From a bacterium (GTDB taxonomy: Bacteria; BMS3Abin14), in the NCBI GenBank assembly GCA_029210965.1, contig JARGFZ010000009.1:1-57809 (forward strand): DNA of 57,809 bases. Direction: 5' to 3'. Below are positions 15,685 to 57,809 of this stretch, piece by piece. Position 1 is the first letter of the stretch. Each line of letters begins with the position of its first letter. The notes beneath the pieces were generated by a model. That model saw only the letters and a list, made by a program, of their open reading frames with translations. It was not told the origin of the DNA and made no database searches. Made by a program: the position numbers and the translations under genes.

Positions 15685-15798
15685 CTTTTCAATTGGAACC
15701 GGTTTGGTGTAAAATTGCTTTGACTACCAGTCAGGCGCAGCACAGTTTTCCGAAGGGGAGTTCAAGAGCTATATGGTTCTTGAACTCCTTTCCCTTTC

Positions 15799-15829
15799 TC
15801 CGCGTCTCCGCGTCTCCGCGTCTCCGTGT
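15799..15829. repeat. Short tandem repeat
   Basis: Three near-perfect cgcgtctcc units in a row. The same motif recurs in degenerate form at 36530-36565 and near 53692-53715. Confidence 0.6.
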
Positions 15830-15886
15830 CACATTTATATTTTAAACCCTTGTGTTCATTGGAGAAGGGTTTAAAATATAAATGTG
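15830..15886 (+). promoter_or_regulatory. 22-bp perfect inverted repeat overlapping the tmRNA promoter
   Basis: Arms 15830-15851 and 15865-15886 are exact reverse complements around a 13-nt loop. The right arm ends at the first G of mature tmRNA and includes an AT-rich aaaatataaa stretch where a -10 element is expected. A ttgtgt at 15850-15855 could be a weak -35. The repeat could act as a cruciform operator, or as a hairpin in a 5'-extended precursor removed by RNase P. Confidence 0.65.
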
Positions 15887-16245
15887 GGGGCGAGTTGGTT
15901 TCGACGGGGGACTGGAATCCCGTGGCGCATGCCGAGGTACCGGTGGCCTCGTTAAACCCCGGTCGTATATAGCTGCCAACGATACCGGCTACGCACTGGC
16001 TGCCTAATTAACTTTAGGTAAGTCGGCGCTGCCCTGACGGCGCCCGTAACGTCAGGACGCAGTGTCATAAGCTCGGGCTTGCTCCCTGTCGCCGCCTGGC
16101 CGGCAGGGGGGACTTCCAGTCAGGCTCATCTTCCAGACTCCCTGTCCGTGGGGTCGCTGGCGGAGAAATTAAACACGGAATAAGCATGTAGTGCCGCGAG
16201 GCTGAAAGCCTTCGGACGCGGGTTCGACTCCCGCCGCCTCCACCA
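15886..16245 (+). ncRNA. ssrA: tmRNA (ssrA)
   Basis: Transfer-messenger RNA for ribosome rescue, about 360 nt. The 5' end GGGGGCGAGTTGGTTTCGAC is diagnostic. It pairs with 3' CGCCTCC before A-CCA (16235-16245), and the T-arm GGTTCGACTCCC lies at 16221-16232. The tag frame starts at GCC 15975 and ends at TAA 16005-16007, encoding ANDTGYALAA, so with the tRNA-borne alanine the tag is AANDTGYALAA. Its protein partner SmpB is encoded at 43759-44214. Accessory sequence begins directly after the CCA. Confidence 0.97.
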
Positions 16246-16359
16246 GTCTTCGTTCGAAACGCAGTGGAGAACGAAGACTGCCACGGCGTAGTTGCCCGAC
16301 AGGGTAACGAAGCCGGGCATCAATTTAAGTGGCTTGTTAATGGCGTTTCGAACTACGCC
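16244..16359 (+). repeat. Nested inverted repeats downstream of tmRNA
   Basis: Three perfect inverted pairs nest here: 16244-16254 with 16270-16280 (11 bp, starting inside the tmRNA CCA), 16252-16262 with 16343-16353 (11 bp), and 16285-16293 with 16351-16359 (9 bp). There is no T-run, so this is not a classic terminator. Mutually exclusive folds are possible. Confidence 0.6.
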
Positions 16360-16541
16360 TTGGCAAGCCATTTTCTTTTGAGACAGAGCAAAGCCTGTCG
16401 CAACCAAACACTTGGAATAAAGCCGGACTTGTCACGGCATAGCCAAAGGCGGCGACGGAAGCCCATTGCGACGCCCCAAGAGCGCAGCCGGAAGCCGCAG
16501 GTGAGCCGGAAGCCGGACGCCTTGGCAAGCCATTTTCTTTT
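16355..16541 (+). repeat. 25-bp direct repeat pair
   Basis: acgccttggcaagccatttt plus ctttt occurs identically at 16355-16379 and 16517-16541, 162 bases apart. The space between has no recognisable gene and includes a CTTGTCCGCC-family repeat (16421-16461). The pair lies between tmRNA and the GIY-YIG gene, so it could be a scar of duplication or insertion. Confidence 0.65.
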
Positions 16542-16586
16542 CTTTAACCCTTTCCAATTTGGACCTGAATTTGCACTGATCATTTC

Positions 16587-16847
16587 ATGGCAAATTCTGG
16601 TCCAATCTTCCACTATGTCTATATTCTCAAATCTCTTAGTGATCCCTCACGTCACTATACCGGACTGACTCAGGATCTCGATATGTGCCTCAAAGACCAC
16701 AACTGGGGGAAGGTACCGCACACACGAAAGTACAGGCCATGGGTGATAGAAACCGCCATTGCCTTCCGGTCCCGTGAAAAAGCATCTGCCTTCGAACAAT
16801 ACCTCAAATCGCACGCAGGCCGCGCTTTCGCCAAGAAGCGCTTTTAA
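16587..16847 (+). CDS. GIY-YIG nuclease-domain protein
   Basis: An 86-residue protein formed almost entirely by a single GIY-YIG domain: YVYILKSLSDPSRHYTGLTQDL (the GIY-YIG pair in the YVY/HYTG form), the catalytic-arginine helix replaced by LKDHNWGKVPHTRKYRPW, and a late Glu in AFEQYLKSHAGRAFAKKRF. Small stand-alone proteins like this are common in bacteria and often sit as mobile cargo; the function is not established. A strong ribosome site is not visible before ATG 16587. Confidence 0.8.
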   Translation: MANSGPIFHYVYILKSLSDPSRHYTGLTQDLDMCLKDHNWGKVPHTRKYRPWVIETAIAFRSREKASAFEQYLKSHAGRAFAKKRF

Positions 16848-53595: not shown

Positions 53596-53763
53596 ATCAT
53601 AAGTCCTCGTAATGGTCAAAATTGGAATCTGGAAAAGGGGAAGAGGAGAGGAGGAGAAGGGGGGAAAGATCTTTAACCTGTTTTGTGTCCCCACGTTTCC
53701 GAGTCTCCGTGTCAGCCGGTTTTTCCCCTTTTCCCCTCTTCCCCTCTTCCCCTCTTCTGTCGC

Positions 53764-57580: not shown

Positions 57581-57600
57581 CTTTCTTTCCTCCAAAACTA

Positions 57601-57809
57601 TTGACAGGGTCGCAACAAGTCCGGACGGGACTTTTTGCTCCTCGGTAAGCGAAAAGCGGGGTTTTCGCTTACCTTACAAATCAATGACATACAGTTCAAG
57701 TCATTGATTTGGGCACCCCACACGGGGTGCGTTGACAGGGTCGCAACAAGTCCGGACGGGACTTTTTGCTCCTCGGTAAGCGAAAAGCGGGGTTTTCGCT
57801 TACCTTACA
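57601..57809 (+). repeat. Tandem repeat element at the right window edge
   Basis: The 78 bases 57601-57678 recur identically at 57732-57809, giving a 131-bp period; the second copy is cut by the window end. Each unit holds the internal palindromes aagtccggacgggactt-like and ggtaagcgaaa / tttcgcttacc. Between the units lie the inverted pair aaatcaatgac / gtcattgattt and gcaccccacacggggtgc. A related copy lies inverted at 6312-6420. Non-coding. Confidence 0.8.

Follow-up and report, generated by a model that had tools for sequence, protein, structure and literature searches.

An inverted repeat with perfect 22-bp arms around a 13-nt loop abuts the tmRNA gene (ssrA) in the 57,809-nucleotide stretch of DNA analysed here (the window). 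The repeat is a real and statistically strong feature, and its identity is mostly ordinary: the right arm is the -10/start region of the ssrA core promoter conserved in this family, while the left arm is an AT-rich stretch beside the -35 box that reaches two bases into it (Table 1). We give about an even chance to the reading that this is a pseudo-symmetric ssrA promoter in which the arms became homogenised, template switching during replication being the simplest route, with promoter function kept. If true, this would be a natural case of a housekeeping promoter reshaped by arm homogenisation with its -35 and -10 boxes retained, and would show how a long perfect hairpin can originate by an RNA gene without an operator or a processing signal. 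For annotation, the lesson would be that a conspicuous palindrome where a gene begins may tell more of replication chemistry than of regulation.

Table 1. Features at the ssrA locus, in coordinates of the window
Feature	Position	Strand	Remarks
ssrA (tmRNA), tag ANDTGYALAA	15886..16245	+	ARAGORN and Rfam RF00023 (197.6 bits)
Left arm of the inverted repeat, CACATTTATATTTTAAACCCTT	15830..15851	+	AT-rich; 22/22 complementary to right arm
Loop of the repeat, 13 nt	15852..15864	+	Contains 4 nt of the -35 box plus some of the -35/-10 spacer
Right arm of the inverted repeat, AAGGGTTTAAAATATAAATGTG	15865..15886	+	Conserved -10/start-site region of ssrA; ends on tmRNA base 1
Predicted -35 box, TTGTGT	15850..15855	+	TTG invariant in 5/5 genomes
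Predicted -10 box, TAAAAT	15872..15877	+	16 nt past the -35 box; conserved
Mirror -10 (TAAAAT on the minus strand)	15839..15844	-	Partner is a poorer -35-like TTCTCC at 15861-15866
Degenerate 8-bp tandem array, TCTCCGCG / CTCCGYGTC type	15793..15831	+	Abuts the left arm; dispersed in the genome; outside the palindrome

Inverted repeat and promoter of ssrA

Complementarity between the arms was 100% (22/22 pairs), confirming the preliminary description, in which a perfect 22-bp repeat was reported to abut the tmRNA gene; its placement of the right arm's end on the first tmRNA base also held, as ARAGORN and Rfam both started the gene at 15886. Among the perfect inverted repeats with loops of 3-40 nt in the window, this was the longest (the runner-up had 14 bp), and 1000 dinucleotide-preserving shuffles of 15700-15950 gave a maximum arm of 10 bp, reached in four of them. 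Folding of the DNA strand yielded -20.1 kcal/mol with a z of -9.35, and the equivalent values of z in four relatives were -1.41, -2.19, -0.25, and -0.18. In 842,310 sampled bases of the genome under study (G000), i.e., about 26% of the genome, with the window included and a stretch of contig C21 added deliberately, perfect repeats of at least 18 bp with a loop longer than 7 nt were limited to the ssrA repeat and a 20-bp repeat on C21. The other perfect repeats of at least 16 bp mostly had loops of 3-7 nt, and several of these short-loop repeats look terminator-like in our reading. The sampled stretches of G000 contained 10 tRNA genes.

The phylum sample consisted of 12 genomes, all from one family, and a tmRNA above the Rfam cut-off was found in five. 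The seven genomes without such a hit (G002, G004, G006-G009, and G011) included two, G006 and G009, that are rated 97-98% complete; a weak 344-nt match to the tmRNA model on contig C2, also from the phylum search, was rejected because it contains tRNA-Pro. A core promoter consisting of TTG, a spacer, TTAAAAT, TGTG, and GGGGGCGAG (GGGGGCG) preceded ssrA in all five ssrA-bearing genomes, and TTAAAAT together with TGTGGGGGCGAG was invariant in their alignment; at the position homologous to the left arm, TTT and CTTG were common to all five. The preliminary description placed the expected -10 within the right arm, in agreement with the box listed in Table 1. Its view that a promoter does not require such a long perfect repeat also held, since relatives share the core promoter without the perfect repeat. 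Against TTGACA/TATAAT at 16-nt spacing, each strand scored 8/12, with TTG on the plus strand only. The promoter call rests on conservation, because the TTGTGT/TAAAAT pair was missing from the output of a consensus scan with tighter demands on the -10. On this basis an ordinary sigma-70-type promoter is predicted, in which the positions of the -35 and -10 boxes are conserved. Transcription of tmRNA would most likely start at 15884-15886, approximately 7 nt beyond the -10, and the hairpin would then be a feature of the DNA, outside the normal pre-tmRNA. The left arm lies in the position of an UP-element, and such a role is predicted for it.

Comparison with relatives and origin of the perfect arms

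The perfect dyad was found in one of the five ssrA-bearing genomes, G000, and in none of the four relatives: the sister G001, which is the sole comparison within the genus, and three outgroups (G003, G005, and G010). With arms fixed at 22 and the loop at 13, and with p estimated against shuffled left arms, complementarity in G001 was 15/22 (p 0.0006), or 17/22 when one 2-nt bulge was allowed (reached in 0/5000 shuffles), followed by 12/22 in G003 (p 0.011), 11/22 in G010 (p 0.0065), and 9/22 in G005 (p 0.23); part of this complementarity is due to the composition of the promoter itself, since TTTTA near the -35 complements TAAAAT. The sister thus has an imperfect quasi-palindrome in the same register and with the same 13-nt loop. 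According to the preliminary description, absence of the repeat from relatives, together with transcripts starting at 15886 from an ordinary promoter, would speak against it; relatives are indeed without the perfect repeat, and an ordinary promoter is predicted, but the imperfect version is retained in G001. Outside the family, no repeat score above 12 was obtained in the 24 ssrA upstream regions scored, the top one (12) being L014. These belonged to 30 fetched ssrA loci, 29 of which were scored and one of which was not found by ARAGORN; in two (L012 and L029), ARAGORN set the start considerably further into the locus than the Infernal hit did, and these upstream regions may be misplaced.

Between G000 and G001, whose tmRNA genes are 99% identical, the left arms were alike at 16/22 positions and the loops at only 3/13, which fits arms that are held together. 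The proposed course would begin with a quasi-palindromic ssrA promoter whose halves were already partly complementary, as in G001, and its arms would have been homogenised to a perfect palindrome in the lineage of G000. A template switch during replication, i.e., quasi-palindrome correction, could have rewritten one arm to complement its partner. The altered promoter may have been tolerated because an inverted copy of the AT-rich -10 would still work as AT-rich DNA upstream of the -35. Correction of quasi-palindromes to perfect ones via template switching in E. coli is described in PMC7202029, creation of perfect stems by a single template-switch event in PMC8794818, and arm homogenisation, including one event in yeast with an extension from 5 to 16 bp, in PMC8604942. 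As in the lacZ and thyA mutations of E. coli presented in PMC7202029, there is an imperfect inverted repeat with a short loop and one lineage in which it is perfect; here, by contrast, the event was not observed, and ancestry is deduced from one sister and three outgroups with equivocal polarisation. The likeness to the RNA stems of PMC8794818 lies in a long perfect stem beside a structured RNA gene, which is hard to build by point mutation, and the difference lies in the ssrA stem being promoter DNA that is probably not transcribed as a hairpin.

Confidence in a template-switch origin of the perfect palindrome is only moderate, since the polarisation is equivocal. At the six left-arm differences between G000 and G001, the base of the outgroup majority was carried by G000 at three (positions 4, 9, and 15) and by G001 at one (position 8), and two were split; this gives no sign of a fresh one-step replacement. 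The left arm of G000 matched the three outgroups at 13, 12, and 13 of 22 positions, and that of G001 at 11, 9, and 12. The loops of G000 and G001 agreed at 6/13 positions when inverted (11/13 as purine-pyrimidine) and at 3/13 and 4/13, respectively, when direct, with a post hoc p of 0.013, and this would suit template switching; yet the direct comparison of G000 with G005 gave 7/13, and loop inversion between G000 and G001, contradicted by the outgroups, was not adopted. It is possible that an older perfect palindrome is decaying in G001, or that the change was stepwise under selection. The retention of the C21 palindrome in three genera (see below) also counts against a template-switch origin, as it indicates that this phylum can maintain palindromes.

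Alternative readings of the repeat

The preliminary description offered a regulator site, a precursor hairpin for RNase P, or one end of an inserted element. The regulator site survives as an alternative that we regard as unlikely, though not negligible: the dyad would be a selected DNA site, with a dimeric regulator bound to both arms, or with cruciform extrusion under supercoiling tuning ssrA transcription. The conservation of the left arm between G000 and G001, far above that of the loop, the significant complementarity retained in G001, and the strong hairpin potential of the G000 repeat would all suit this, but constraint on an UP-element and the -35 alone could explain the conserved left arm, and the perfect dyad is missing from all four relatives. 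Usual operators need less than a 22-bp perfect arm. When the whole genome was searched with the full 20-nt core of the arm at up to three mismatches, it was found at its own two arms alone, and a regulon operator recurring with this core is therefore unsupported. Among the matches listed in a literature search on ssrA or tmRNA promoters with an inverted repeat, there was no palindrome of an ssrA promoter, and the sole match for "ssrA promoter" concerned the SsrA-SsrB system of Salmonella. PMC10434271 reports an enrichment of inverted repeats near several features of bacterial genomes, tmRNA among them, the present case not being included there.

Because TAAAAT and the start-region sequence are identical on both strands, each scoring equally against the consensus, the mirrored -10 might drive a divergent leftward transcript besides tmRNA. 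Bidirectional promoters are common in E. coli according to PMC12825309, and the ssrA promoter resembles the pseudo-symmetric ones described there in its two-fold sequence symmetry with a -10-like box for each strand. In that paper, however, divergent starts are commonly 18 bp apart around a shared -10 (10 and 23 are also common), whereas at ssrA the symmetry centre lies between the -35 and the -10, the two -10 boxes are separate, and the predicted starts are approximately 54 bp apart. With TTG absent from the minus-strand -35 and no convincing gene for a leftward transcript in the ORF listing, such two-way transcription is doubtful. Since both arms share the -10/start region and the -35 consists of loop plus two arm bases, inversion of the loop would turn the whole promoter away from ssrA and onto the other strand. 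The tmRNA supply within a population could be toggled in this way, either through template switching or through recombination of the two perfect arms, but we consider such a flippable promoter extremely improbable.

Folding of the repeat in a precursor would involve read-through from the upstream AcrB-type gene, which lies on the same strand, with trimming by RNase P or RNase III beside the hairpin, and the stem end does coincide with the mature 5' base. A conserved -35/-10 pair, however, lies inside the repeat at a normal distance from 15886, and the start of tmRNA is unchanged in relatives without the hairpin. Base 15886 would also need to pair in both the hairpin and the acceptor stem, and the upstream gene is followed by an 11-bp repeat (15757-15788), although a terminator scan gave no U-tract terminator. 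Since the left arm is some 35-56 nt ahead of where transcription is predicted to start, a normal transcript would be without it. The RNase P leader hairpin was set aside because of the conserved promoter within the repeat, and any precursor hairpin is very unlikely.

As the end of an inserted element, the palindrome would be a terminus or scar and the 8-bp array the body. The array does abut the left arm, its similarity stops at the start of this arm (15830-15832) in many of 41 array-type matches elsewhere in the genome, and the 20-bp palindrome on C21 likewise adjoins an array. The arm sequence, however, is absent from other array copies, and the flanks of arrays are generally without such palindromes: an inverted repeat score of at least 11 within 10 bp of an array was found at 2/49 clusters in loci of G000, 0/22 in G003, and 1/24 in G004. 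A degenerate array also occupies the same place in G001 (by eye), and that at the C21 locus is common to three genera; arrays at matching places in relatives are not recent insertions, and an insertion scar is thus unlikely. This reading is already largely refuted, and we rate it as highly improbable.

Arrays, the C21 palindrome, and other observations

The pattern of the 8-bp array was counted 195 times in G000, against 0 for a reversed control, and arrays, which are widespread in the family, were found in 9/9 genomes searched, G000 included; a literature search with four letter strings of the array returned no relevant paper. We propose no general association between palindromes and arrays: in 837,809 bases with 30 array clusters, two of 11 repeats (score of at least 16, loop longer than 7 nt) were located within 10 bp of an array, and both sit in the window, namely the ssrA repeat and another (53632-53757) with an array inside it.

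A similar but stronger palindrome is the 20-bp repeat on C21 (L101:2091-2155), with counterparts in G006 (L121) and G004 (L122). It is located at the start of a ketopantoate-reductase-type (panE-like) gene (Pfam ApbA), with its left arm over the presumed ribosome-binding site and its right arm over the first codons. The repeat is conserved in three genera, with 3/20 pairs changed on both sides (compensatory). Orthologues are also present in G003 and G005. Scoring covered G000, G006, and G004: the z values of the RNA fold were -7.6, -5.0, and -4.0, and 91.7% of the cells in the three-sequence alignment were paired, using the structure of the G000 row. The C21 repeat looks like a conserved mRNA hairpin, and an 8-bp array abuts this palindrome in all three genomes.

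The 3' flank of ssrA (16244-16847) opens with a 12-bp repeat and a stretch similar to the sequence behind tRNA-Leu on contig C59 (79% identity in the matched part); a GIY-YIG ORF comes next. This may be an element that is dispersed on the downstream side of RNA genes. The corresponding flank differs in G001 and G003, in which a terminator-like hairpin is present. G003 has a further copy of the tmRNA 3' end (L079; C1:2662243-2662326), 84 nt long and with 90% identity to the tmRNA of the window. It lies approximately 26 kb from the ssrA of G003, beside N-masked bases, and may be where an element has integrated, i.e., its attachment site. At the end of the window (57600-57809), a repeated unit of approximately 131 bp carries GGTAAGCGAAAA and CAAATCAATGAC hairpins, and hairpins of the CAAATCAATGACT type were seen again in several of the stretches sampled. 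Four loci of G000 (L089, L100, L112, and L116) contain further families of intergenic tandem repeats in an inverted arrangement, with ATCTCA-, GTAGAA-, and AGAATGT-type units.
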